A DNA stretch of 64,000 bases from Parasegetibacter sp. NRK P23 (lineage in GTDB: Bacteria > Bacteroidota > Bacteroidia > Chitinophagales > Chitinophagaceae). The DNA lies in NCBI RefSeq assembly GCF_023721715.1, contig NZ_JAMDLG010000007.1, positions 114,033-178,032 of the forward strand, in the 5' to 3' direction. The translations under genes were made by a program, and so were the position numbers. Under the pieces are notes generated by a model that made no database searches, was not told the DNA's origin, and worked only from the letters and a program-made list of their open reading frames with translations. Below are positions 5,570 to 64,000 of the stretch, piece by piece (the stretch's first letter is position 1; the number at the start of each line of letters is the position of its first letter).

Positions 5570-7645
5570 TTATTGCTTCAGGAAAGGGAGGATACGGTCT
5601 TTGTTCTTATTTCTCAGATGTAAAAAATACATTCCTTTAGGTAGGTGGCTGATCTCAATCTCGGCTTTTTCACCCCTCATTTCCACCATTTGTACAATTG
5701 TACCGGTAATAGAGACAATATCAATTTTTGATTTGCTGCTTGAACCCTTAAAAAAAATAAAAATTTTTTCACAAGCGGGGTTGGGGTAAAGTATTAGTTG
5801 GGGTTCCGGTGCAAACGGAACAGTGGTGCGGTGAATGGAACTGTCTCCGTTTGTGAGGTAGCGGATGAGCTTATACTGCGGATCTGGGAAATTACCGGGC
5901 GGTCCCGAAGCCGCACAGGAAAAAGCGGATTCTCGCAACGGCCTTCCCCACGTATTCCACTGAATGCCGTTATAGGATGAATACCATTGAAAGCGGACAA
6001 CTTCCTCTTTGTCAGAAGATTCCAGGTGGAGATGAAATTCATTGTCACTTTTTTTCCATGCTATCCGACCCGTGTTCACAGGTAGGGTGGAAGCTGGGTG
6101 GGTGCTGGCCAGGGTAAAAAGGGTTCCGCTACTTACATTGGCGCTCACCGCTCCGTTGCTGCCCGGGAATCCTGTAACTGCAACATGTGGCAACATGGAC
6201 CATTGCTCATCCTTTAAAACCGCTACCCGAAGGTGTTGCACATCCGCAATGCCACCGCTCACCGGTTGGAGGAAACTTACCTCCAGGTGTGCGTTTCCCG
6301 TAAGTCCCGTTATTTCCCAATGCTCCGTTCCGCTGATGTGCGCCAGACCGCTTTCGGGTTGTATGGCTGCTGAAAGTGGCGGAGCCGCTCCTTTGTAACT
6401 TACCGTGACATCGCCTGAAGAACCTGATAGGAGAATGGGTCTTGCGTAACCCAAACCACCCGTTGGAAAAACATAAACCGAATCTGGTTCAAGACTTCTT
6501 CTCAACACCGGGCCGTTAATATAACTGTTATTCGTTCCGGAGAAAGGGGCGTTCAGGTTGGAGTAAACGGAGCCAACAGAACTGGTTGTGGCCTTTTGCT
6601 CTAAAATCAGCATTGCCGTATCGGATGAATACACGATCCCCTGTTCAAAAACCAGTCTCCCGGTAACCGAAATTTCTTTCTTCAAAAGGAGGTCGCCACC
6701 TTTCAGCGCCAAATGATGAATGGACAATGACGCTATATTATTTCCCGATACCTGGTGTGCATGAGGTCCCCCAAGGCGCACTTCCCCCGTCCATTGCTCC
6801 TGCCCCAGCTGAACAGGCCCGCTGGCGTTTTGAATGATATTACCGTACAACAATAGGTTCCCTGTTCCTCCTGATGGCCGGAAAAGAAATTGTCCTTCCG
6901 CCACGATCAGGTCGTTATGGATCACCACATCCTGCGGGAGGGAGAGGTTGTAGGATGCGGCCGCGGCCACTTCGAAATACCCGAAGGACCGGCCGCTCAG
7001 TTGCGGAGCGGTGGCGCGTTGGTGCCTGTAAACGGAGCCGGGTTCAAACAGCAGCACAGTATTGGGCGCCGCCGCACCAAACGGGTTCGCGCCGGCTATG
7101 CTGATATAGGTGGCATCGGCTCTGAATACAACACTGTTTAGGGCGCTTGTTCCAAAGGGATTGCCCGTGAACCCCGTTCCTGCCCTGAACACTGCGCCCG
7201 CTTCAAAATATATCTTCCCCCCATCAACTGACAATAACCTATGTGGTCCCGATGTGCAGTTGATTGCGCCATTGATTTGCGCGCTGCCTTCCCCTGCAAT
7301 ATGTATTTCCACCCCGCCGCTGCCGGAAAGTTGAAGCTCCGAGCCTGGTTCCAGCTCCAGCATTCCGGAGGCTACCACCAGTTTAAAAGTGGATGCGGTG
7401 GTCCATTGCACAACCGCGCCTGTCTCTATCCTGACCACTGAAACCGTATCGGTACCTGGAAAGGTATTTATATAGGCTGTATCTCCAAACACCAATGTAT
7501 CCCCGGTATGGGGGGCCGTTCGCTCGGGAAGCCAATTCCCGGGAACGGCCCATCCCCCATCCGGGGCCACCCACCTGTACGCGCGCTGCGAAACGGCCTG
7601 TAACGATAAAATGAGCATACAACTCACCAAGATCCCTCTCCTCAT
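5570..7645 (-). CDS. Secreted protein with T9SS type A sorting domain
   Basis: 691 residues. The N-terminus MRRGILVSCMLILSLQAVSQ is a Sec signal peptide. The body is rich in beta-strand with Gly/Asn/Ser turns (for example GSELQLSGSGGVEIHIAG), consistent with a beta-helix surface protein. The last ~75 residues start with LYPNPACEKIFI and contain HLPKGMYFLHL, the type A C-terminal domain recognised by T9SS and removed on export. Function of the body is unknown. It is convergent with the LolC/E-type permease and divergent from gldF. Confidence 0.85.
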   Translation of the reverse strand: MRRGILVSCMLILSLQAVSQRAYRWVAPDGGWAVPGNWLPERTAPHTGDTLVFGDTAYINTFPGTDTVSVVRIETGAVVQWTTASTFKLVVASGMLELEPGSELQLSGSGGVEIHIAGEGSAQINGAINCTSGPHRLLSVDGGKIYFEAGAVFRAGTGFTGNPFGTSALNSVVFRADATYISIAGANPFGAAAPNTVLLFEPGSVYRHQRATAPQLSGRSFGYFEVAAAASYNLSLPQDVVIHNDLIVAEGQFLFRPSGGTGNLLLYGNIIQNASGPVQLGQEQWTGEVRLGGPHAHQVSGNNIASLSIHHLALKGGDLLLKKEISVTGRLVFEQGIVYSSDTAMLILEQKATTSSVGSVYSNLNAPFSGTNNSYINGPVLRRSLEPDSVYVFPTGGLGYARPILLSGSSGDVTVSYKGAAPPLSAAIQPESGLAHISGTEHWEITGLTGNAHLEVSFLQPVSGGIADVQHLRVAVLKDEQWSMLPHVAVTGFPGSNGAVSANVSSGTLFTLASTHPASTLPVNTGRIAWKKSDNEFHLHLESSDKEEVVRFQWYSSYNGIQWNTWGRPLRESAFSCAASGPPGNFPDPQYKLIRYLTNGDSSIHRTTVPFAPEPQLILYPNPACEKIFIFFKGSSSKSKIDIVSITGTIVQMVEMRGEKAEIEISHLPKGMYFLHLRNKNKDRILPFLKQ

Positions 7646-7780: not shown

Positions 7781-8503
7781 ATGTGGTCCATTTGTAAAAA
7801 AGAATGCAGCCAGTTCTTCAGCAGTCTCACGGGATTCATTGCCGTGGCGGGTTTCCTGTTGCTGACCGGCCTCTTCCTTTTTGTTTTCCCCGATACCAAT
7901 ATCCCTGATTATGGTTACGCCAGTTTACAGCCATTTTTTGACCTTGCGCCATGGATATTACTTTTCCTGATACCGGCCATAACCATGCGCAGTTTTTCAG
8001 AAGAATTCAAATCGGGCACCTTTGAAATCCTGCAAACCAGGCCCATCGGCTTTTCCAGGCTTATCGCGGGGAAATACCTCGGTTGCCTGTTGATCGTTAC
8101 CATAGCGTTGCTACCCACACTCATATATATGTATTCCGTGGAGCAACTTTCGGAGACCGGGGGACTGGATATGGGCGCCACAATTGGTGCGTATATAGGG
8201 TTGTTCCTGCTTGCCGCGGTATTTACAGCCATTGGTGTGGCCTGCAGCAGTTTTACATCCAATGCGGTGGCCGCGTTCCTCATCAGTGTGTTCGCGTGCT
8301 TCATTTTGTACAGCGGTTTCAACGCGCTGAGCCGCGTTCCAGGCCTTGCCGGAACCGCCGATTATTATATTGAACTGCTCGGTATCGACTTTCATTACAA
8401 CAGCATCAGCAGGGGCGTGGTGGACATCAGGGATATCGTATACTTCGCATCGGTGATCTTGCTTGCCGGCTGCATTACTTACCGCAATCTTCAAAAACGC
8501 TAA
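7781..8503 (+). CDS. gldF: Gliding motility ABC transporter permease GldF
   Basis: 240 residues with six predicted membrane helices typical of ABC-2 permeases. It begins MWSICKKECSQFFSSLTGFIA and contains LIPAITMRSFSEEFKSGTFEILQTRPI, a hallmark of GldF. GldF, GldG and the ATPase GldA form the ABC transporter linked to gliding motility in Bacteroidota; gldA is not in this window. The stop codon is 7 bp before the gldG ATG, so the two genes form an operon. Confidence 0.9.
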   Translation: MWSICKKECSQFFSSLTGFIAVAGFLLLTGLFLFVFPDTNIPDYGYASLQPFFDLAPWILLFLIPAITMRSFSEEFKSGTFEILQTRPIGFSRLIAGKYLGCLLIVTIALLPTLIYMYSVEQLSETGGLDMGATIGAYIGLFLLAAVFTAIGVACSSFTSNAVAAFLISVFACFILYSGFNALSRVPGLAGTADYYIELLGIDFHYNSISRGVVDIRDIVYFASVILLAGCITYRNLQKR

Positions 8504-8510
8504 GGCTCCC

Positions 8511-10205
8511 ATGAAGAAATTAATCAGTTCACGTTTTGGCATATTGCTGCTGATAGTTGTATTGGCAGGTATCAACTATATAGTATCTTTCTTTCCCGCC
8601 AGATTGGACCTTACCGCAGAGCAAAGGTATACCCTCAGCAAGCCCACCAAACGCATGCTGATGGAACTGCCCGCACCGGTTACCATAACTGTTTTTTTGA
8701 AAGGAGAATTTCCCGCAGGCTTTAGAAAACTGGCCAATAGCGCTGAAGATATGCTCCGTTCCTTCAAGGAATACGGACGCGGCAATTTCAGTTTCAGATT
8801 CATACAACCCGGAGAAGGGCTAGAGGCCGATGCAAAAGCGGCTTTCCTCGATTCCCTCCGTATGATGGGCCTGAACCCACTGAATGTAAAGGCTCAGGCG
8901 AAAGAAGGAGAAGGCTCCGATCAACGGCTGGTTTATCCAGGCGCATTGGTTTCTTACCAAGACCGCGTTTATCCCGTTGACCTGTTGCAGGGGCTGAGTT
9001 CCAACGAAGGATTGAATACCTTAAACAGCGCCGAGGCCCTGCTGGAATATAAATTCGCGGGTGCCATCGAAAAAGTGTTGCGCGACAGTGTACCCATCGT
9101 CGCCTATGCTACGGGTAATGGTGAAATTGAGGATGCCCGCGTAGAGGACCTTACCAATGTATTACTGAACAATTATTATCCGCAGAAAATCGACCTCAAT
9201 ACCACAGCTTATATTCCCGATGAAGTGGGCGTATTGCTGATCGTTAAACCCACAGTCGCTTTCACAGAATCCGAAAAACTCAAGATCGACCAGTACCTGA
9301 TGGGTGGCGGAAAGGTAGTGATGGCGCTGGATCCGTTGAATGCGGAATTCGATAGCCTGCAACGCGCACAAAGCGATTTTATCGCTTTTGACCGGGGGCT
9401 CAACCTGCAGGACCAGCTTTTTAAATATGGCATCCGCATCAACCCCGATCTTGTACAGGATATCCAGAGCGATAAAGTGCCTTTGGTGGTAGGCGTGGTA
9501 GGCGGAAAGCCACAAATGGAGCTGATTCCGTTTCCCTATTTTGTTCAGCTGAACGGCACGCAACACCCCATATCGAAGAACCTGGATAAAGTACTGTCGT
9601 ATTTCCCGAGTTCTATTGATACCGTTACGGCGCCGGGAGTTTCTAAAACAATGCTGCTTACCACATCTAAAAACGCGCGTGCCTTACAAACGCCGGCGAT
9701 CGTTTCCCTGAACAGTGTAAAAACGGAAGCCGATCTGGCCACCTTCATCAAGCCCGATATTCCTGTAGGTGTGCTCGCTGAAGGCGCGTTCCCCTCCATG
9801 TTTGCCAACAGGCTGCCCAAAGCAACGGCCGATTCGCTGAAAGCCATGAACAGGCCGTTCAGGAATATGGCCGCTCCCGGTGCTACCTTAGTGGTGCTTT
9901 CCGACGGTGATATTTTCCTGAACCATGTGAACAACCAGGAAGGTCCGTTGCCGATGGGCGTGAATCCTTATACCCGGTACCCGTTCGCCAACAAAGAATT
10001 CTTCCAGAATATGATGGAATACCTGGTAAGCCATTCCGGCATCCTGGAAACACGCTCCAAAGACTTCACCCTCCGCCTTATCGACGCGAAAAAAGCGGAA
10101 CAGGAAAGGACTTACTGGCAATTGTTCAACATCGCTCTTCCCGTAGCCCTGATGATTGCACTGATCGCCGTTTTCCAGTGGCGTAGGAAAAAGAAATACA
10201 ATTAA
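8511..10205 (+). CDS. gldG: Gliding motility-associated ABC transporter substrate-binding protein GldG
   Basis: The ATG at 8511 is preferred over an in-frame upstream start at 8463, because it follows gldF by 7 bp and gives the membrane-anchor start MKKLISSRFGILLLIV. The 564-residue product has an N-terminal helix, a long periplasmic domain of the GldG/DUF4350-like type (VVMALDPLNAEF, ATLVVLSDGDIFLN) and a C-terminal helix (about 535-555) followed by RRKKKYN. It works with GldF as the extracytoplasmic part of the transporter. Confidence 0.92.
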   Translation: MKKLISSRFGILLLIVVLAGINYIVSFFPARLDLTAEQRYTLSKPTKRMLMELPAPVTITVFLKGEFPAGFRKLANSAEDMLRSFKEYGRGNFSFRFIQPGEGLEADAKAAFLDSLRMMGLNPLNVKAQAKEGEGSDQRLVYPGALVSYQDRVYPVDLLQGLSSNEGLNTLNSAEALLEYKFAGAIEKVLRDSVPIVAYATGNGEIEDARVEDLTNVLLNNYYPQKIDLNTTAYIPDEVGVLLIVKPTVAFTESEKLKIDQYLMGGGKVVMALDPLNAEFDSLQRAQSDFIAFDRGLNLQDQLFKYGIRINPDLVQDIQSDKVPLVVGVVGGKPQMELIPFPYFVQLNGTQHPISKNLDKVLSYFPSSIDTVTAPGVSKTMLLTTSKNARALQTPAIVSLNSVKTEADLATFIKPDIPVGVLAEGAFPSMFANRLPKATADSLKAMNRPFRNMAAPGATLVVLSDGDIFLNHVNNQEGPLPMGVNPYTRYPFANKEFFQNMMEYLVSHSGILETRSKDFTLRLIDAKKAEQERTYWQLFNIALPVALMIALIAVFQWRRKKKYN

Positions 10206-55977: not shown

Positions 55978-56002
55978 CATAATCATCAAAAGGATAATTA
56001 TG
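55978..56002 (+). promoter_or_regulatory. Inverted repeat across the recombinase start codon
   Basis: CATAATCATC pairs with GATAATTATG (one mismatch, loop AAAAG); the right arm ends with the ATG of the recombinase. It could be an operator or a translational hairpin; either would tie recombinase level to its own leader. Confidence 0.5.
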
Positions 56003-57190
56003 ATCACGATGTATGTACGACCTCTTCACCATAGAGGTCAGGATTGGATGGGGTTATATTATGAACATTACCCTTCTGTCAATGCGATTTTGCGGAAGGA
56101 GTTACTGGCCCGTTGGAGCAGAACCCACCGGTGTTGGTATATCCCATTAGAGAAAGATATTTTTGACCGGCTCAAAAAGCTCCTTTCGGGAAAAGTAGAA
56201 CTGGACACCATTGAATTAAAGCAGTTCCTTGAAGAGCGTAAAGCCAATGAGGAGCCTGTTTTTTCCGATGTGGAGCATCCTGGGAAAGATACACTCCGTG
56301 CTTATGCCTTAACCGGTCGATCTTATCCAGAGCTTTCGCCGGTAAATGAAGCGGTATTGAAGCGGGTGGTACAGCATCTTGTCTTAAAACATTACAGCAA
56401 GAGCACGATTACAACTTACCGAAACGAGCTGCATGTCTTTTTTAAGCTACTTGGTCCCATTTCCCCCGAGCATCTTTCCCCTGAAGACATCAGGCGGTAT
56501 CTCCAGAAATGTGTAACCGACGGTTTGACCGAAAGCTCCTTACACAGTAGAATAAATGCTTTAAAATACTATTATGAACGGGTATTGAATAAGGAGAAGT
56601 TCTTTTTTGATATTCCCCGTCCCAAGAAGCCTTTACTTTTACCCCGGTTCTTCACCCAGGATGAGATTACTTCCATTATAAAAGCATCGGGTAACCTGAA
56701 GCACCGTACCATGTTGATGTTAACGTACAGTGCCGGCTTACGGGTAAGTGAGACAATTTCTTTGCGTGTCCCTCAGGTCGATGAAGGGCGTCGTTGTATT
56801 TTTATCCACAGGGCTAAAGGTAAAAAAGACCGGATCGTACAATTAAGTCCGGTTTTGGTGATTGTACTCCGCGAGTATAAAAAGGAATACAAGGTTGCGG
56901 CGGAAGGGTATTTGTTTAGTGGGCAGCATCCGGGGCATCCATACAGTGCGCGAAGTTTGCAATTGGTTTTAGAGCGTGCCAAGAAGCGTGCGGGCATCTT
57001 AAAGCCAGGCAGCATCCATGCGTTGCGACATAGTTTTGCCACGCATTTACTGGATAAGGGGACGGATGTAACAATGATTATGAAGTTATTAGGCCACAAC
57101 GACATAAAGACTACTTTGAGGTATCTTCATGTAACGAATCGGGATTTGTTGCAGGTTGTTAGTCCGATCGATGATCTCAAATTGATGTAG
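56000..57190 (+). CDS. Tyrosine recombinase of the cassette array (Xer-like, not IntI-like)
   Basis: 396 residues. Catalytic residues can all be placed: Arg248 (SAGLRVSE), Lys273 (RAKGKKDR), His340 and Arg343 (IHALRHSFATHLL), His366 (LLGHND) and Tyr375 (TTLRYLHV). A core-binding SAM-like domain spans about 118-205 and the catalytic domain about 215-385; residues 1-90 form an extra N-terminal domain (HHRGQDWMGLYYEHYP, WSRTHRCWYIPL). Between the Lys hairpin and the HxxR box only about 55 residues lie, so the roughly 40 extra residues that IntI has here are missing. The end VVSPIDDL recalls the SPLD of IntI. It reads toward the cassettes and ends 94 bp before the first cassette boundary. Role inferred: insertion and excision of the cassettes downstream. 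Confidence 0.92.
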   Translation: MITMYVRPLHHRGQDWMGLYYEHYPSVNAILRKELLARWSRTHRCWYIPLEKDIFDRLKKLLSGKVELDTIELKQFLEERKANEEPVFSDVEHPGKDTLRAYALTGRSYPELSPVNEAVLKRVVQHLVLKHYSKSTITTYRNELHVFFKLLGPISPEHLSPEDIRRYLQKCVTDGLTESSLHSRINALKYYYERVLNKEKFFFDIPRPKKPLLLPRFFTQDEITSIIKASGNLKHRTMLMLTYSAGLRVSETISLRVPQVDEGRRCIFIHRAKGKKDRIVQLSPVLVIVLREYKKEYKVAAEGYLFSGQHPGHPYSARSLQLVLERAKKRAGILKPGSIHALRHSFATHLLDKGTDVTMIMKLLGHNDIKTTLRYLHVTNRDLLQVVSPIDDLKLM

Positions 57191-57197
57191 TATATTT

Positions 57198-57292
57198 TTT
57201 AACTATGCGGTTACTGATATATATAAATGGTGCTGGGGGAGTAGGGAGTGAGGTAGAAATTGAATGGGAGCGCATAATAGGGAGTTAGCACC
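57198..57292 (+). other. Candidate attI (primary insertion site)
   Basis: GTTAGCACC (57284-57292) is the left boundary of cassette 1 and pairs exactly with GGTGCTAAC at 57862-57870. Upstream, TTAACTATGCGGTTACTG (57198-57216 region) looks like a worn left arm of the array elements (AACAGCGGTTTACTG), and GGTGCT at 57229-57234 inversely repeats AGCACC. These would make a partial site before the first cassette. Confidence 0.55.
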
Positions 57293-57987
57293 AATTATAA
57301 AAAAAAGACGGTGACAAATAATCTAGACATATTTAGAAAGGAGTTTTTAGAAGCGAATACTTGGGCACAGAGAAAGGACGGTGTTCCTCTTGAGCTGCTT
57401 GACAACTTGACTGACGAGCAGATGAAAATTGCAGAAGTTGAACTTATTGACGTTGTAAGCCTAAAAGACAATTGGCCAATAGTTGGACTTGGACATATAA
57501 AATCAAAAGATGCATTGCCTAAACTTTATGACTTGCTCGACAAAAGTAAAGGTGCAATGAAAGTGACCATTGCACATTCGATTTTTCAAATATGTCAGGA
57601 CACCAAAATGATAGAAATTGTTCTTGAAACAATGCCGAGAATAACTAACCAATATGAACTTATTGACGTTTTGTATTATTTGCCTGACTTCAAAGACAAG
57701 CGAATTACAGAATTGCATCAAAGTTACCGAAATCATAAAGAATATTTGGTGGCATATAATGCGACTCGATATCTTGGTTTACCGACAGGCGAAGTAGTTG
57801 AAAAATTCCGTGACAAGAAAGAATAAAGAAGTATATCGGACAGATTGATGGGAAAATAACTGGTGCTAACAGCGGTTTACTGCTAGCCGGGTAAGACGGT
57901 AAACTCAATGTTCATTTTTCAAAGTAAATTCAGTCACAGTAAGACTGTTTACGTTTCCAAACTCCCGTCCATCAGTAAGCCGTACCG
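57285..57987 (+). mobile_element. Cassette 1
   Basis: 703 bp between the G/TT cut points. Left nonamer GTTAGCACC, right box GGTGCTAAC: perfect inverse match over 9 nt, extending to 10. Contains the gene at 57311-57826. Confidence 0.85.
57311..57826 (+). CDS. Cassette 1 protein, HEAT-repeat-like, unknown function
   Basis: 171 residues from GTG 57311, 19 nt after the cassette boundary box. It is helical and has HEAT/armadillo-like character (VGLGHIKSKDALPKLYDLLDKSKGAMKVTIAHSIFQI, YELIDVLYYLPDFKDKRITELHQSYRNHKEYLVAYNATRYLG), suggesting a scaffold for protein contacts. No catalytic motif, signal peptide or membrane segment. The stop codon is 35 bp before the attC-like element. AT-rich, unlike host genes. 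Function unknown. Confidence 0.75.
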   Translation: MTNNLDIFRKEFLEANTWAQRKDGVPLELLDNLTDEQMKIAEVELIDVVSLKDNWPIVGLGHIKSKDALPKLYDLLDKSKGAMKVTIAHSIFQICQDTKMIEIVLETMPRITNQYELIDVLYYLPDFKDKRITELHQSYRNHKEYLVAYNATRYLGLPTGEVVEKFRDKKE

Positions 57988-57995
57988 TTGCCTGC
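57862..57995 (+). repeat. attC-like element 1
   Basis: 134 bp. Left box GGTGCTAAC (57862-57870), right box GTTGCCTGC (57987-57995). Arm TTACTG (57877-57882) pairs with CAGTAA (57973-57978); CGG/CCG add an outer stem with extra bases on the right. Contains the conserved core AGCCGGGTAAGACGG and inner GTAAAC/GTTTAC. Confidence 0.85.
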
Positions 57996-58696
57996 AACCA
58001 CTCCTTGACACATCATAATGACAATTGGTAAAATTTTAGGTTACATCGGTTTGACAATTTTGATTGTCTTTGTAGTATTTGTAATACTATTCGCAAGGTC
58101 TTGTAATAATGGCGGCTTGTATCAAGCCGGTTCAGGTTTAGGCTCAGTGACAACAATCGAAAATTACAGATATCAGCAACAATATTATGAGAAGTATGCG
58201 GACACTTTTCTGGCCATATTTCCCGAATATAAAGTTCCTAATGACGATCCAAGTGCACATATGACTTCTGGATATAAGTTTATTAATATGACAAAATTCT
58301 ATTTTGACAAATCACCCAAAGAAATTTATTGTGTACAATGGCAAGGCATAGATGTCCGAATGGCTTATAATGTTGACAGGGATGAAATGATTATTGAAAA
58401 TCCAAGAGATAAAGTTTACATTGACAAAACAGAGAAAGAGCGAATGAGTAAAAGATTAAGGGCAGAAGTGATTGACAAATTAGATTCTATTATTGCAAAT
58501 TCAGTTGACAAAGACTCTGTGTTACTAAAACATTTTTAGCACAACTAACTGACTGTTTCTAAAATATGGCAGCAGGCAACAATAGTTTTGCAATAGCCGG
58601 GTAAGACGGGTAACGTGATGTTTGGTTTTCAAAGTAAATTCACTCACGGCAAGACTGTTTACGATTTTAAATCCCGGCCATCGCAAAGCCGTTACG
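57988..58696 (+). mobile_element. Cassette 2
   Basis: 709 bp. Left nonamer GTTGCCTGC pairs exactly with the right box GCAGGCAAC (58572-58580). Contains the gene at 58018-58539. Confidence 0.85.
58018..58539 (+). CDS. Cassette 2 membrane-anchored protein, unknown function
   Basis: 173 residues. One N-terminal membrane helix (about 6-28, LGYIGLTILIVFVVFVILFA) followed by RSCNNGGLYQAG and a soluble domain (about 55-173) with YKFINMTKFYFDKSPKEIYCVQWQGIDVRMAYN and an acidic/charged C-terminus. Probably anchored in the inner membrane with the domain outside. No family recognised. Starts 23 bp after the cassette boundary box. Confidence 0.75.
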   Translation: MTIGKILGYIGLTILIVFVVFVILFARSCNNGGLYQAGSGLGSVTTIENYRYQQQYYEKYADTFLAIFPEYKVPNDDPSAHMTSGYKFINMTKFYFDKSPKEIYCVQWQGIDVRMAYNVDRDEMIIENPRDKVYIDKTEKERMSKRLRAEVIDKLDSIIANSVDKDSVLLKHF

Positions 58697-58704
58697 TTAT
58701 GCAC
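58572..58704 (+). repeat. attC-like element 2
   Basis: 133 bp, subtype B. Left box GCAGGCAAC, right box GTTATGCAC (58696-58704). Arm TTTGC (58587-58591) pairs with GCAAA (58683-58687), replacing the TTACTG/CAGTAA pair of elements 1, 3, 4 and 6. The core AGCCGGGTAAGACGGG is kept. Confidence 0.85.
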
Positions 58705-59370
58705 AATTTTATGGCGACGTACAAATAATGAATTTCAGACAACAGATAGCAAAGTATGTGACGGGAAACTTGACAAAAAGCCAACTTCCTTCTGTCGGTA
58801 TGATCGGGCTTGAAGAAGGATTCGATAGCCCATCGCTTCGGATACTTGCTGGACTCGGTGAATCCGAATCTTCTTTTGTTATTGACTATTATTTTGATTT
58901 TTCGCTTAAGGAACTAAATATAACTCTTCCCGATCGAAGACAGGCGGCCATTGATTATGCAATGGCTTTTGTTGACGAGATATTGTGTAAAAATATAGAC
59001 GTAATTGAAGGGACAAAGGAAATATTGCAAAAAGCAATTAATAGTTATGACTTTTTTTCTGAAAGCGAAAAATATTGTTATGACAGCATAGGTTTTGAGA
59101 CAGCTTACGGACTGTACGATTTGTTTAATGAACTCTCGGACAATGACTATCCATTGCGGGTTGAAGAAAATTTGGATTTAAAGATTGAAACAAGAGACAG
59201 TCTTCTTGCAGAGTTGAAGAGATGGGTTGACAAACTAAAAAACTGTGCATAACAGCGGTTTACTGAATAGCCGGGTAAGACGGTAAACTTGATATTCATT
59301 TTCCAATTAAATTCAATCTCGGCATGACTGTTTACGTTTCCAAACTCCCGTCCATCAGTAAGCCGTACCG
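58697..59370 (+). mobile_element. Cassette 3
   Basis: 674 bp. Left nonamer GTTATGCAC pairs exactly with the right box GTGCATAAC (59245-59253). Contains the gene at 58728-59252. Confidence 0.85.
58728..59252 (+). CDS. Cassette 3 protein, unknown function
   Basis: 174 residues, acidic and helical. The start MNFRQQIAKYVTGNLTKSQLPSVGMIGLEEGFDSPSLRILAGLGESES resembles the N-termini of small Bacteroidota proteins of unknown role. The stop codon TAA lies inside the left box of the element (GTGCATAAC), so the gene uses the cassette boundary as its stop. No catalytic motif or membrane segment; a partner or immunity role is possible but unsupported. Confidence 0.72.
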   Translation: MNFRQQIAKYVTGNLTKSQLPSVGMIGLEEGFDSPSLRILAGLGESESSFVIDYYFDFSLKELNITLPDRRQAAIDYAMAFVDEILCKNIDVIEGTKEILQKAINSYDFFSESEKYCYDSIGFETAYGLYDLFNELSDNDYPLRVEENLDLKIETRDSLLAELKRWVDKLKNCA

Positions 59371-59378
59371 TTATAGGC
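59245..59378 (+). repeat. attC-like element 3
   Basis: 134 bp. Left box GTGCATAAC, right box GTTATAGGC (59370-59378). Subtype A arms TTTACTG/CAGTAA, core AGCCGGGTAAGACGG, inner GTAAAC/GTTTAC. Confidence 0.85.
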
Positions 59379-60095
59379 TATTTAGACCATAAAACTATGA
59401 AGAGTATTTTGTTTTTTACTGCGTTAGCTATGACTTTCTGGACTTGTGTTTCGAAGGATGGGAGCAAAGGGAAATCTTTATACGCGTCTAAAATGATTGA
59501 AGGTTCTACCGGCAAGAAATTTTTTGATTATGATGAGATTGAATATTGGTCAAATGATTTTGACGGAGCTTCAGTGATAGACTTATACGACAATGAATTT
59601 AAATCAGAATTAGACTCTTTTCGGGCGGGTGTTATTGTAGGTAACATTCCAAAAAGTATTTCAGATTTAACTTTTATAAATAAACTTGGTGAAATTGGTT
59701 ACAGTAAATCATATATCGACAAATCCTACTTTTCGAGCATTGACAACATTTTTATTGAGAAGGAAACAAAAGAGAACGTAGGTACAGCATGTGTATATGT
59801 TTTTCGTGATATTTTAATATTTAAAAAAGGGCGGAGAGTGATAGGAGTAGCAAAGGTTTGTCTTGGTTGCATGGGAAATAAAATTATTGGGACCACGGCA
59901 ATGACGGATAATTTTGGACAGGACGGTGATTATAAAAGACTTGAAGGGATTTTGAGACACTGAAAACAGCCTATAACAGCGGTTTACAGCCAGCCGGGTA
60001 AGATGGTAAACGTGATGTTCATTCTTGAAAATAAAATTCAACCTCGGCAAGACTGTGAACGTTTCCAAACTCCCGTCCGTCAGTAAGCCGTACCG
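59371..60095 (+). mobile_element. Cassette 4
   Basis: 725 bp. Left nonamer GTTATAGGC pairs exactly with the right box GCCTATAAC (59969-59977), extending to 10 nt. Contains the gene at 59397-59963. Confidence 0.85.
59397..59963 (+). CDS. Cassette 4 candidate lipoprotein, unknown function
   Basis: 188 residues. The start MKSILFFTALAMTFWTCVSK looks like a lipoprotein signal with Cys17 as a possible lipidation site, though the -3 position is not ideal. The mature part has VSKDGSKGKSLYASKMIEGSTGKKFFDYDEIEYW, and the end VAKVCLGCMGNKIIGT carries a CxxC. No family recognised. Stop 5 bp before the attC-like element. Confidence 0.68.
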   Translation: MKSILFFTALAMTFWTCVSKDGSKGKSLYASKMIEGSTGKKFFDYDEIEYWSNDFDGASVIDLYDNEFKSELDSFRAGVIVGNIPKSISDLTFINKLGEIGYSKSYIDKSYFSSIDNIFIEKETKENVGTACVYVFRDILIFKKGRRVIGVAKVCLGCMGNKIIGTTAMTDNFGQDGDYKRLEGILRH

Positions 60096-60103
60096 TTAGC
60101 GGC
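59969..60103 (+). repeat. attC-like element 4
   Basis: 135 bp. Left box GCCTATAAC, right box GTTAGCGGC (60095-60103). The left arm TTTAC is kept but the inner base differs (AGCGGTTTACAG); the right arm is CAGTAAGCC. Core AGCCGGGTAAGATGG with one change. Confidence 0.82.
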
Positions 60104-60924
60104 AACCTTGACACACTCAGCAATCAACATGAAATTTTGGGAACTGACATCGTCTTTCAGAGAAGAACGCGATATTTTATGGCAGGTTCTAATGCAAGAC
60201 AAGTGGGAAAAATATTGTGATCATTTTAAAAGATGGGACGATATTATTCAAAACCAGGAAAGACACATCTTAGATGAGGTACTTCCCTTTGACCTCTGCT
60301 ATGAAGTCGCTGTTAAAAGCAAGAAGGAATATTGGTTGTCATTTAATGAATCCCCACAAATTATCTATAATTTCAGGCCGGACATTGAATATTTGGAGCG
60401 GCTACTTCCAAGTGAAATTCTTATTCGTTTTGGTGGTGAGAAAATAGAGGATGCGCGTGAGCGAAGTATGACAGAGGTTCAGCCAAGACCGCTAAATGGT
60501 AACGTTGAAGTAATTGGTAGTTATGTGTTGACAGCCTTAGGAATGGTGGCGGTTTTAAGATCGGAGCATAACAAGATTCCTGATAATTGTCTCTTATCGT
60601 TGTCTAACGAAATGAAACGATGGTTGGTGAAAGAAGAGTTTACACCATTAAATGTTGACCCATATTCTGCGTATAAAAAGCTAGAAGCTCAAAGAGTGCA
60701 AAATATTAGACACTATTTAATAGTCGGCGTTGACCATTTTGACAAACCCAAGCCGGGTGAAGTAATGAAAATTATTGAGTCCAGTAATTAATAAGGCCGC
60801 CGCTAACAATAGTTTTGCAATAGCCGGGTAAGACGGGTAACGTGATGTTTGGTTTTCAAAGTAAATTAACTCGCAGTAAGACTGTGAACGTTTCCAAACT
60901 CCCGGCCATCGCAAAGCCTTGCCG
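60096..60924 (+). mobile_element. Cassette 5
   Basis: 829 bp. Left nonamer GTTAGCGGC pairs exactly with the right box GCCGCTAAC (60799-60807). Contains the gene at 60129-60791. Confidence 0.85.
60129..60791 (+). CDS. Cassette 5 protein, unknown function
   Basis: The ATG at 60129 (MKFWELTSSFREERDIL) is chosen over a TTG at 60108. 220 residues; no signal peptide or membrane helix. Contains WSKYC-like segments, IIYNFRPDIEYLERLLPSEILIRFGGEKIEDARERSMTEVQPRP and LNVDPYSAYKKLEAQRVQNIRHYLIVGVDHF. No family recognised. It ends 7 bp before the attC-like element. Confidence 0.75.
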   Translation: MKFWELTSSFREERDILWQVLMQDKWEKYCDHFKRWDDIIQNQERHILDEVLPFDLCYEVAVKSKKEYWLSFNESPQIIYNFRPDIEYLERLLPSEILIRFGGEKIEDARERSMTEVQPRPLNGNVEVIGSYVLTALGMVAVLRSEHNKIPDNCLLSLSNEMKRWLVKEEFTPLNVDPYSAYKKLEAQRVQNIRHYLIVGVDHFDKPKPGEVMKIIESSN

Positions 60925-60932
60925 TTGGCGGT
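60799..60932 (+). repeat. attC-like element 5
   Basis: 134 bp, subtype B (like element 2). Left box GCCGCTAAC, right box GTTGGCGGT (60924-60932). Arms TTTTGC/GCAAA, core AGCCGGGTAAGACGGG. Confidence 0.85.
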
Positions 60933-60944
60933 AATATTATGACA

Positions 60945-60986
60945 TAGCAAGAACTTTGAATAGAATATAATTGACCTTTCTTGCTA
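60945..60986 (+). promoter_or_regulatory. Inverted repeat in the leader of cassette 6
   Basis: TAGCAAGAA (60945-60953) pairs with TTCTTGCTA (60978-60986) around 24 nt of AT-rich sequence. It may be an operator for the large gene; the other cassettes have leaders of only about 20-35 bp. Confidence 0.35.
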
Positions 60987-61162
60987 CAAATATCTGATGC
61001 TTCTGGAAAGGCTGGGGAACTGATAACTCTCTATTAGCTATTTAAAATTGTTTCTAAAACCTTTGATATTCGAAATTAATTTGTGTAATAAATATAGGCA
61101 CAAGTCTGTTGAACATTTAGAATTTAAACTCATTAGTAGGCCTTTCCGGTGGATACTTAAAC

Positions 61163-63823
61163 ATGCAAACTCTAATAACAATGAATGATTTCTACTGCGA
61201 TCCCAAATCTCTTCTTTCTGAAAGTGATGTTGAACAAAAAGTGATTTGGCCATTATTAACTAAAGGGGAACCGATTGGACTAGGATATACAAAGGCGGAT
61301 ATTCAAACTAAAATAAATTTAAGAAAACTGGAAATTGACAAAGGTGCGAAGTCGCAATTGTATTATCCAGATTATTTGTTGTCATTACAAGGTGTTCCCC
61401 AAATTATTGTTGAAGCAAAGAAGCCAAACGAAGATTTACATGAAGCCTATAGACAGGCATCATTATATGCATCTGAGATTAATAGATATTTCGAGGCGGG
61501 GATTAATCCTTGCAAGTATATAATCGCATGTGACGGATTGAAATTGGTTGCCGGAACTTGGGACGAGGCAAAATTTCAGTTTGAAATTGAGGCAACTGAT
61601 TGGTTGCCTACTCATAAAGATTTTGGCAAATTTCTTACACTGTTCTCATATACTAATCTTAATAAAGTTGCTACCGAAACTAAAAACTCAATTAGAAGAA
61701 ATGTACAATTCAGAAAGCCATTATATCTGGTAGGAAGTAGTTCAATTCAAAACAAACAAACGGTTAATACATTTGGCGAAACAATTTCGATATCATACCA
61801 ACACTTATTTAACCCTTTAACTGATGAAGAAAAAACTGATATAGTTAAAAATGCTTATGTTAAAGTATACAAACACGAGTCGCATCTTACTCCTATTCAG
61901 AAAATAATAAAAAAGAAACTTCATCCTTCATTTCAGGACACTACAGAGATTGATGACAACACAAACCCAAAGGAAATTTCAAACAAACTTAGAAAAGCAC
62001 ATAAATATAATAATAAGGTTCTTCTATTAGTAGGAAGTGTGGGGTCTGGAAAATCGACTTTTATAACTTATTTAAAAGAGGTTGCATTAAAAGAGGGAAT
62101 TACGAATAAGTTGTTTTGGGCAAATTTGGATTTAAACAATGCACCTGTAAGTCGGGACGAAATATACAAGTGGATTAAACAAAATTTAATAGCGCAAATT
62201 CATGACTACTATAGCCACATTGATTTTGATAGCTATGAGGTAATAACTAAAGTGTATGCTGAGGAGATAGCAAAATTCGATAAAATTGCCGGCGCTCTCT
62301 TATCGAAAGAAAGTGAGAAGTATAAGTCGGAATTGTACGATAGTTTAAAAAGATTGCAGGCTGATATAGATATCACATTGAACTCCTTGATAAGAGAAAT
62401 TGTAAATGCAGACAATAAGGAGTTAATCATTGTATTGGACAACTGCGATAAAAGAAATCTTGAAGAGCAATTATTAATGTTTGAGGTAGCTAATTGGCTT
62501 AAGGATACAATAAAATCAATCGTATTCTTACCATTAAGAGACACAACCTATGACCATTTTAGAAATGAAAAGCCATTAGATACAGTAATAAAAGATTTGA
62601 CATTTAGAATAACTCCAGCCTCTCTAGAGAAAGTAATATATACAAGAATCAAATATGCATCACGTCTTTCGAAAACTAACTCAACTCGCTACTATACTCT
62701 AAAAAATAACATTAAAGTCTCTTATCCTGCTGTTGATGAGTTGTATTATTTAAAAAGTGTGTTGGCCTCTCTTTTTCAAAATAATTTTTTTAAAAAACTT
62801 TTGATTGGATTGGCTGGAAGTGATTTGAGAAAAGGAATCGAAATCTTTACAGATTTTATTAAAAGTGGACACATTAGTGAAGTGGATATTCTAAAAATGA
62901 AGCAATCTAAAGGCGAGCATAAGTTGTCTAATCACATCGTAAGTAAGGTGTTTTTAAGAGGTAATCGTGCCTATTATAATGATGAATCGTCGAAAATTAA
63001 GAATTTATTTTATTCAGACCCAAGCGATAGTATTCCCAACCCCTTTACAAGACTTTCAATTTTAAAGTGGCTGCATTCAAATTATAGAATAAAAGGGCCG
63101 AGTGGGATACCTGGTTTTCACTCAACTGACAAAATAATTTCATACTTAAATAGTCTAGGACATGACAAACTCAGAGTAGAGAAAGAAATTCTTTCTTTAA
63201 TTCGGCAAAAATTGTTAAGCAGCGAAACTCAAGATAGTCAAAGAATAAAACCAAATGAGCTAGTTTCTATTACAACTTCTGGCATAATACATTTGGATAT
63301 TTTAGGGAATCTTGATTATTTAAGCGCATGTAGCGAAGATACTTGGTTTGAAGATGTGAAATTGGCGGAAAAAATTGCGACTAATATGGCAGGTGAAGGT
63401 AAGTTGTCGCACTTATCACTTCAAAATGTATTAGCACATTCTGAAGAATTTTTAGGTTACCTGAAAAGATATTTTGACAAACATTTTAAAGCCTATTATA
63501 GTTTCATTAATGATGGGTACAATTTAAATCCTATGGATTTTGATAGATTTAATTCAATGATTTCAAATGCAAAGGCTAAGTTAAGTAGTGATCCAGAGAT
63601 AGAAATTGAGCCTGGAACTATTAAAAAGTGTAGGATTTTAAGTATCAGATTTTATGGTATAATTGTTCAACTAGACCAGTCAAGACACAAAGGATTCATA
63701 AAAGCGAATACTATAAAGGATAAAGACTTTGAAACAAATTATCATTTGGAACAGGTTATTGACTTAGAAGTTGTTAAATATAATTCTGTACATGGTAAAT
63801 ATGATATGAGGATACCAAAATAA
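61163..63823 (+). CDS. HsdR-like nuclease / P-loop NTPase / S1-like protein, candidate defence gene
   Basis: 886 residues. Residues about 15-150 match the N-terminal nuclease domain of type I restriction R subunits: Asp70 (YYPDY), Glu84 and Lys86 (IIVEAK), and the QxxxY motif Q98-Y102 (QASLY). A P-loop NTPase follows: GSVGSGKST (Gly291-Thr299) and Walker B LIIVLDN with Asp426. The middle and C-terminal part are helical, and about 812-886 resemble an S1 (OB-fold) RNA/ssDNA-binding domain (CRILSIRFYGIIVQLDQSRHKGFI). It lacks the helicase motifs of HsdR. I infer a nucleic-acid-sensing nuclease of the anti-phage kind, acting alone. Very AT-rich. Confidence 0.8.
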   Translation: MQTLITMNDFYCDPKSLLSESDVEQKVIWPLLTKGEPIGLGYTKADIQTKINLRKLEIDKGAKSQLYYPDYLLSLQGVPQIIVEAKKPNEDLHEAYRQASLYASEINRYFEAGINPCKYIIACDGLKLVAGTWDEAKFQFEIEATDWLPTHKDFGKFLTLFSYTNLNKVATETKNSIRRNVQFRKPLYLVGSSSIQNKQTVNTFGETISISYQHLFNPLTDEEKTDIVKNAYVKVYKHESHLTPIQKIIKKKLHPSFQDTTEIDDNTNPKEISNKLRKAHKYNNKVLLLVGSVGSGKSTFITYLKEVALKEGITNKLFWANLDLNNAPVSRDEIYKWIKQNLIAQIHDYYSHIDFDSYEVITKVYAEEIAKFDKIAGALLSKESEKYKSELYDSLKRLQADIDITLNSLIREIVNADNKELIIVLDNCDKRNLEEQLLMFEVANWLKDTIKSIVFLPLRDTTYDHFRNEKPLDTVIKDLTFRITPASLEKVIYTRIKYASRLSKTNSTRYYTLKNNIKVSYPAVDELYYLKSVLASLFQNNFFKKLLIGLAGSDLRKGIEIFTDFIKSGHISEVDILKMKQSKGEHKLSNHIVSKVFLRGNRAYYNDESSKIKNLFYSDPSDSIPNPFTRLSILKWLHSNYRIKGPSGIPGFHSTDKIISYLNSLGHDKLRVEKEILSLIRQKLLSSETQDSQRIKPNELVSITTSGIIHLDILGNLDYLSACSEDTWFEDVKLAEKIATNMAGEGKLSHLSLQNVLAHSEEFLGYLKRYFDKHFKAYYSFINDGYNLNPMDFDRFNSMISNAKAKLSSDPEIEIEPGTIKKCRILSIRFYGIIVQLDQSRHKGFIKANTIKDKDFETNYHLEQVIDLEVVKYNSVHGKYDMRIPK

Positions 63824-63826
63824 ACT

Positions 63827-63960
63827 ACCGCCAACATCGGTTTACTGCTAGCCGGGTAAGACGGTAATCGTGATGTTCTTTTTCTAAAGCAAATTCATTC
63901 ACGGCAAGACTGTGAACGTTTCCAAACTCCCGGCCATCAGTAAGCCGTACCGTTGTGTGT
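63827..63960 (+). repeat. attC-like element 6
   Basis: 134 bp. Left box ACCGCCAAC, right box GTTGTGTGT (63952-63960). Subtype A arms TTTACTG/CAGTAA, core AGCCGGGTAAGACGG. Confidence 0.85.
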
Positions 63961-64000
63961 AACCTTGGTGACGTTTTACACTTATCAAAATTACAGTTGG
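63953..64000 (+). mobile_element. Cassette 7 (start only)
   Basis: The last 48 bp follow the right box GTTGTGTGT. Its own gene and closing element are outside the window. The pattern predicts a closing box ACACACAAC. Confidence 0.7.

Follow-up and report, generated by a model that had tools for sequence, protein, structure and literature searches.

A probable integron-type cassette platform with a recombinase lacking the IntI domain in Parasegetibacter sp. NRK P23

Introduction

At one end of a contig of Parasegetibacter sp. NRK P23 (Chitinophagaceae), a tyrosine recombinase gene is followed by a row of gene-sized units, each with ends that are inverted copies of one another. The window analysed here is a stretch of 64,000 nucleotides of this genome, and its last position is the end of the contig (C7). 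Does this recombinase capture and release genes as cassettes, and if so, is it an integron integrase? The IntI-specific domain is described as defining and necessary for integron integrases (PMC9668308). A further account calls the insertion essential for function, yet incompletely conserved in an 'integron-like' subgroup (PMC8138268), and by that statement integron-like recombinases without the insertion have been noted by sequence before. Bacteroidota are listed among the phyla with integrons (PMC8618304). One survey added a single complete Bacteroidetes integron, that of Salinibacter ruber, where earlier only cassette-less integrases had been recorded (PMC9024848). Our own search of titles and abstract openings (subscription journals and preprints lay mostly or wholly outside it) found no publication that deals, for this group, with arrays whose integrase is not an IntI, and none combining integron, Chitinophaga and attC.

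We argue from sequence comparison that the locus is very probably a chromosomal integron-type platform, composed of a recombinase without the IntI domain, an attI-like site, 80 complete one-gene cassettes and attC-like elements, and that it likely captures and excises these cassettes.

The locus

The features lie as follows (positions of the window, all on the + strand).

56000..57190, +, tyrosine recombinase (resident integrase), 396 aa, on the same strand as the cassettes; an extra N-terminal domain (residues ~1-83) precedes SAM-like and catalytic domains (Pfam PF00589, 1.5e-37; PF02899, 1.7e-11)
57270..57292, +, attI-like site, gcgcataatag followed by 3 nt and GTTAGCACC; GTT at 57284, 94 nt past the end of the integrase gene
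57284..57870, +, cassette 1, boxes GTTAGCACC/GGTGCTAAC; ORF 57311-57826, 171 aa, weak HEAT-like match (E 0.04)
57862..57995, +, attC-like element 1
57987..58580, +, cassette 2, boxes GTTGCCTGC/GCAGGCAAC; ORF 58018-58539
58572..58704, +, attC-like element 2
58696..59253, +, cassette 3, boxes GTTATGCAC/GTGCATAAC; ORF 58728-59252
59245..59378, +, attC-like element 3
59370..59977, +, cassette 4, boxes GTTATAGGC/GCCTATAAC; ORF 59397-59963
59969..60103, +, attC-like element 4
60095..60807, +, cassette 5, boxes GTTAGCGGC/GCCGCTAAC; ORF 60129-60791
60799..60932, +, attC-like element 5
60924..63835, +, cassette 6, boxes GTTGGCGGT/ACCGCCAAC; ORF 61163-63823, 886 aa
63827..63960, +, attC-like element 6
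63952..64000, +, start of cassette 7 (GTTGTGTGT...), cut by the end of contig C7, which is the end of the window

The initial annotation of this DNA had reported six 9-nt reverse-complement pairs, GTT... on the left and ...AAC on the right, and all six are present at the cassette ends. The protein of cassette 6 has an HSDR_N domain (E 7.5e-8) and a weaker match to an AAA-type NTPase. A second copy of cassette 3 (58696-59253), 98% identical, lies on contig C16, and three more cassettes are duplicated within the array at 89-94% identity.

The array beyond the window

When the retrieved parts of 11 contigs were scanned with a profile built from the window's six elements, 90 elements came up (~87 kb together), in a single orientation on each contig. 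They sit at the end of C7, at the start of C23 and on nine further contigs, where the outermost elements are no farther than 1.05 kb from either end. The eleven contigs probably form one array of ~87 kb. When the genome was searched with one element, the best 40 of 104 candidates were all on these 11 contigs. This speaks against a non-mobile repeat family scattered without cassette genes, which the initial annotation had named as the contrary reading; scattered weak copies may exist.

The ends of each cassette match along the whole array. In all 79 complete cassettes scored the two boxes match over at least 8 nt, whereas 2,000 random re-pairings of the same ends gave, on average, 3.6 matches over at least 7 nt, and 10 at most. 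The earlier claim that the pairing exceeds chance is upheld, and boxes outside the window keep matching within cassettes, contrary to one of the refuting results named with it. The two boxes of one element have only GTT/AAC (3 nt) in common in 46 of 88 cases, 4 nt in 28 and 5-10 nt in 14; that is, neighbouring boxes of the same element mostly mismatch beyond GTT/AAC, as had been proposed.

With the first window cassette added to the 79 (n=80), positions 1-8 match in 80/80 cassettes, position 9 in 77 and position 10 in 48. Position 11, counted from the GTT, is A in 80/80 on the GTT side and is matched in 9. Pairing then resumes, with positions 12-14 matched in 54, 64 and 54 cassettes, and is at chance level from position 16 onward. 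At each of positions 4-10 and 12-14, 0 of 1,000 permutations reached the observed matching. A set of 106 cassettes from 18 other genomes (positions 1-9 match here by selection, and five cassettes come from the doubtful G113 chain) has A at position 11 in 105, matched in 1, and positions 12-15 matched in 91, 96, 81 and 62. Cassettes of the window genome have a median length of 724 nt, and the longest ORF is on the array strand in 78/80.

Contig C23 (L040) also holds, just past its last array element, what looks by eye like an IS3-type transposase pair (5623-6859, minus strand). About 3.3 kb past the same element is a second tyrosine recombinase (8412-9335, minus strand) of 307 aa, without the N-terminal domain.

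Cassette cargo

Among 78 cassette proteins scanned, 65 Pfam families were matched, and most of the 25 families listed occur in one protein each. They include AIPR, the DUF1016/YhcG nuclease, the AlwI restriction endonuclease, PIN, Fic and a Tdi1-type immunity domain. PADLOC also matched defence candidates, AbiU and PDC-S02 among them. By family name, several cassette genes look related to defence, nucleases or toxins.

Folding of the attC-like elements

An alignment was made of 87 of the 90 elements (two without a left box and one spanning the border between two sequence pieces were left out). Identity within the genome averages 77% per column, and columns 7-9 and 141-143, the AAC/GTT ends, are invariant in all 87. 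Three adjacent pairs of the inner stem are switched on both sides in 25/87 elements, with 1 broken cell among the three pairs. The switch may mark two element lineages; the complementary change preserves the stem. Cells with a change on both sides number 85, against 31.6 in shuffles. By two other counts, pairs with double changes (4) and further pair types (6), the alignment does not exceed the shuffles. Pairing along the stem is 91% and drops to 28-51% in slid controls. Three of the 17 drawn pairs are weak (13-135 unpaired in 40/87 elements, 27-122 in 52 and 26-123 in 20).

Folded with the cassette's own two ends, as they would lie in a circle, the bottom strand is the more stable one in 75/79 cases. 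The mean folding energy is -26.6 kcal/mol for the bottom strand with own ends, -22.6 for the top strand and -18.7 with the neighbour's box; using the neighbour's box instead of its own costs the element ~8 kcal/mol. Unpaired bases show no excess on the R''-L'' arm (465 vs 485) in this prediction of folding without protein.

A different kind of element was noticed in a relative from another family of the same order (G110). There, next to a 469-aa relative of the integrase, an array (L099, 389-8117) has cassettes with much shorter elements, with 53-54 nt between the boxes and strong hairpins. These are possibly a third size class of element.

The attI-like site and cassette turnover

The first box was sought by end-pairing alone, at most 350 nt downstream of the integrase, and was found in 30/68 loci. 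In the relatives a conserved motif, approximately GCGTATATTTA, stands at a fixed 3 nt before its GTT; the copy in the window has 4 mismatches. Motifs of this kind (at most 3 mismatches) precede 20/30 first-box sites and 0.5% of 7,295 other GTTR positions, a comparison that is partly circular because the motif was derived from the same sites. The position of attI beside the integrase is seen directly in relatives and by homology in the window genome.

Close relatives allow us to ask where two arrays part. We compared 54 same-genus pairs of loci (one pair being two loci of one genome), and in 7 of them homology continues for 100 nt or more beyond the integrase gene. Of these seven, five clear pairs and one doubtful pair lose it 3-13 nt past the point where the attI GTT begins, and the seventh loses it where a contig runs out. 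The doubtful pair, G004/G693, is so counted because the first genome has GTA where the second has GTT, at 70% identity. Two other pairs lose homology 58-91 nt beyond the gene, before an attI-like site is reached; in the remaining pairs it ends at or before the stop codon, or the loci are too diverged for alignment. For example, G065 and G631 differ at only 5 positions over 2,399 nt and carry different cassettes from the GTT on, and G507/G679 (97.5% identity) break directly after the GTT. At the level of sequence, these breaks are the clearest evidence that cassettes enter at the attI GTT.

Cassette content thus differs between close relatives (G065/G631, G507/G679, G591/G643 and others). The initial annotation had expected sister strains to differ in this way; the expectation held for sister genomes of relatives. 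Together with the array-wide boxes and the layout in relatives, the breaks at attI bear out its view of a gene-capture platform that was recently working in this lineage. In two of the loci compared (L254 of G065 and L245 of G631), two small reading frames that resemble a toxin-antitoxin pair by eye lie between the integrase and attI.

The integrase

The catalytic residues of the recombinase (R248, K273/K276, H340, R343, H366 and Y375) are invariant in a 43-row alignment. The IntI-specific segment of ~40 residues is missing. Between the KDR and HxLRH motifs there are 62-65 residues in 50/51 rows of the family (52 in one truncated ORF), compared with 103-104 in 10 IntI references. The IntI structure 2a3v aligns with the window integrase in two blocks, with 62 residues between the blocks in 2a3v and 22 in the integrase. 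Foldseek places 2a3v first, tied with XerA (1.7e-13 and 2.0e-13). The best curated model by bits is that of XerA (NF040815, 180 bits against a cut-off of 220), and the IntI model TIGR02249 scores 176 bits against a cut-off of 265. Since the recombinase fails both the IntI-specific domain and the curated model, 'integron-like', the term chosen in the initial annotation, is the right word.

In the phylogeny, IntI references form a clade with 100/100 support, and the window's family lies outside it. An AU test rejected a clade of IntI with only the six nearest array integrases (p 1.4e-54), and did not reject one of IntI with a 24-row Bacteroidota clade (p 0.131), which includes recombinases with no array found beside them. 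The matches listed from a contig scan, mostly distant recombinases with names, were used as a reference set.

The N-terminal domain matches DUF5710 (PF18974) in 32/43 homologs at E <= 1 (best 1.1e-5). Folded alone (pLDDT 62), it had no PDB match at E <= 0.001, and the VIA list says little about it; a guess that it is HARP-like was supported by no analysis. The rest of the genome has no canonical IntI above the cut-off. CTAA-N5-TTAG, given as the SOS box for Chitinophagaceae (PMC8565304), is absent from the 300 nt upstream of the window's integrase, and occurs within that distance in 1/51 loci. In a plasmid search with the integrase, all matches were below 60% identity among the 5,000 listed. 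Two proteins 94% identical to the window integrase (P0001 and P0002) are found on contigs of up to 13.9 kb.

Arrays beside related integrases

Is the arrangement peculiar to one genome? The integrase is present in 46/119 relatives, the window genome included (E <= 1e-50), and its profile matches 107/294 sampled genomes of the family (E <= 1e-70), a count of integrases and not of arrays. A first array detector, which had no stem filter, was too loose because 3/102 shuffled strands contained chains of three. The main detector used inverted 9-nt ends, spacing and an inner stem, and nothing else. It found chains of at least three cassettes, all downstream of the integrase, in 14/51 loci of a first set (the window's included), and 1/255 shuffles reached three. 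The other 37/51 had no chain of at least three, often because the contig ends soon after the integrase; L081-L085, with ~9.5 kb available, are exceptions.

A stricter detector limited the boxes to GTTA/GTTG. In a second set of 20 loci, 17 of them fresh, chains of at least three were found in 8/17 fresh loci. Chains of three were found in 0/20 XerD control loci and 0/200 of their shuffles. Rerun on 47 loci of the first set (the window's locus and three others stayed outside), it gave at least three in 8. G067, G065 and G004 also reach three under this limit, and G110 and G044 drop out, the first box of G044 being GTTT. The chain in G113 is doubtful, with one box repeated. The detector is strict, as ten IntI reference loci used as a positive control yielded one chain of three and one of two.

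Canonical IntI above the cut-off occurs in 105/395 sampled genomes of the phylum and in 1/119 nearer relatives. The suggestion that integrons are seldom met in this phylum therefore fails for the phylum as a whole, in the bounds that the genome sampling gives it. Among 108 phylum genomes with an IntI match, 107 fall outside the window's class, and the remaining one belongs to its order.

What moves as a cassette

Two copies of one cassette in G679 have a body identical in 814/815 positions and a 3' core identical in 118/118, with a 5' core identical in only 86/122 and an unrelated next cassette. By sequence this is the integron unit, that is, a body with the attC core that follows it. The window genome has a copy of the same cassette on C18 that is 90% identical from GTT to AAC, and its core is unrelated (0.53). 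Similarly, a cassette on C16 and one in G261 have the same boxes and 82% identity with unrelated cores (0.60). The plain integron model does not predict a separation of body and core in these two cross-genus pairs, the only two on which it rests.

Duplicates within the window genome bear on the same point. In four duplicated cassettes the 3' cores are no more alike than the 5' cores, a weak test because random cores of this genome have a median of 0.83; in one pair the 3' core reaches 0.79 and the body 0.90. Homologs of the window genome's cassettes in G671, G664, G525, G599, G585, G054, G645, G704, G591 and others showed no cassette form with both boxes, and we do not count them in favour of swapping. 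In L270, L272 and L275, a 9-nt box pair surrounds a 70%-identical body, with boxes unlike those of the window genome's cassette.

A further segment deserves mention here. On contig C25 (L038), positions 1-1055, before the first element, resemble DNA from five other genomes at 70-79% identity, and the AAC end is absent in the three of these viewed at their edges (L287, L288 and L291). Its end box, CTTACCAAC, is unusual. Judging by these features, the segment could be a newly made cassette.

Alternative explanations

The locus might be an ordinary integron whose IntI has diverged and either lost the additional domain or never had it fixed, and so one more IntI branch. Its layout, its attI and attC boundaries and its bottom-strand bias are those of an integron, and the insertion is incompletely conserved in the integron-like subgroup of PMC8138268. 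The comparison of integrases cuts both ways: the AU test does not reject IntI with the 24-row clade and Foldseek puts 2a3v first, tied with XerA, but the fully supported IntI clade excludes these sequences, grouping IntI with the six nearest array integrases is rejected, XerA is the better model (both below cut-off), and the 24-row clade also holds recombinases with no array found. We regard such a branch as unlikely, though it is the alternative that we take most seriously. Improbable in our judgement is a mobile unit made of gene body and inverted end boxes, moving as double-stranded DNA or by way of two different cuts between attC cores that are resident repeats. The two cross-genus pairs, bounded by GTT and AAC around different cores, and the duplicated pair with the less similar 3' core are what such a unit would leave behind. 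The G679 copies have body and 3' core in common and not the 5' core, however, and the sister genomes break at the attI GTT. Moreover, boxes that vary while keeping their complementarity fit pairing within a strand better than sequence-specific recognition of a double strand.

A different host enzyme, XerC/D or the second tyrosine recombinase on C23, might move the cassettes, with the adjacent gene a bystander. We consider this very improbable: the window's family adjoins an attI-like site and an array in the loci examined, and the 20 XerD loci are without arrays; in its favour is the 307-aa gene past the last C23 element. Lastly, the elements are alike enough (77% per column) to recall a non-mobile repeat family, and inverted repeats can fall by chance between unrelated genes. 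The permutation, shuffle and XerD-locus controls rule out both, and the strict orientation and the break at attI between near-identical genomes leave them a negligible probability. On the comparative tests the platform works like an integron, and it falls outside the IntI-defined family.

Proposed mechanism and implications

The integron-type platform would work as follows. The recombinase likely captures cassettes at attI and excises them between attC-like elements. A free cassette would be circular, its own two ends paired with each other, and the single bottom strand would then fold into a hairpin. This hairpin would have an R-like stem (AAC/GTT and ~6-7 cassette-specific pairs), followed by an inner covarying stem, and would close in a terminal loop. 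Strand exchange by the recombinase is predicted to take place at the GTT, with attI in double-stranded form, and would put the cassette beside the integrase. Transcripts that pass through the co-oriented integrase gene may extend into the first cassettes.

A bolder reading, about which our confidence and our doubt are evenly balanced, is that this is a second integron class. In the window's family, a Xer-derived recombinase, equipped with an extra N-terminal domain but no IntI domain, would have come to capture folded single-stranded cassettes, and body plus end boxes would be separable from the attC core, the cassette adopting the core type of its new host. If true, this would reveal how genes turn into cassettes, and would mean that integron chemistry can proceed without the IntI domain. 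How gene cassettes arise is an open question, and the cross-genus pairs, with body and boxes conserved around foreign attC cores, are relevant to it. Should the enzyme act as predicted, integron recombination could do without a segment described as necessary for it, provided that another domain or site shape takes its place. Surveys of the IntegronFinder type rely on the IntI-specific domain, by the account in PMC9668308, so they would miss this family of platforms or file it as attC clusters without an integrase.

Comparison with known systems

XerA and other Xer-type recombinases are close structural and profile neighbours of the integrase (5hxy, 4a8e, NF040815), and the spacing of catalytic motifs is that of the other aligned non-IntI recombinases. 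The window's integrase differs in its extra N-terminal domain and in scoring below the XerA cut-off. We know of no Xer recombinase that runs cassette arrays.

Among the nearest systems are the sedentary chromosomal integrons of the Vibrio type. Both have an integrase beside attI, a long array in one orientation, one-gene cassettes, attC sites bounded by AAC/GTT, complementary cassette ends, attC likeness within a genome and a preference for the bottom strand. Complementarity of 9-11 nt between cassette ends is stated for most canonical cassettes (PMC2727003), so we do not count end pairing as new, and attCs are likewise described as alike within one genome (PMC8352920). Differences from the Vibrio type are the missing IntI-specific domain and the extra N-terminal domain, and canonical extra-helical bases are not evident in the predicted folds. 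The conserved and mostly unmatched A at position 11, with pairing resumed beyond it, may be a further difference.

In IntI-defined integrons the integrase gene is typically divergent from the cassettes, whereas here it is on the same strand. Treponema integrons, whose integrase is described as transcribed toward attI in the direction of the cassettes (PMC3607928), have the same layout; their integrase is called intI in that source, and in the window's integrase the IntI domain is absent.
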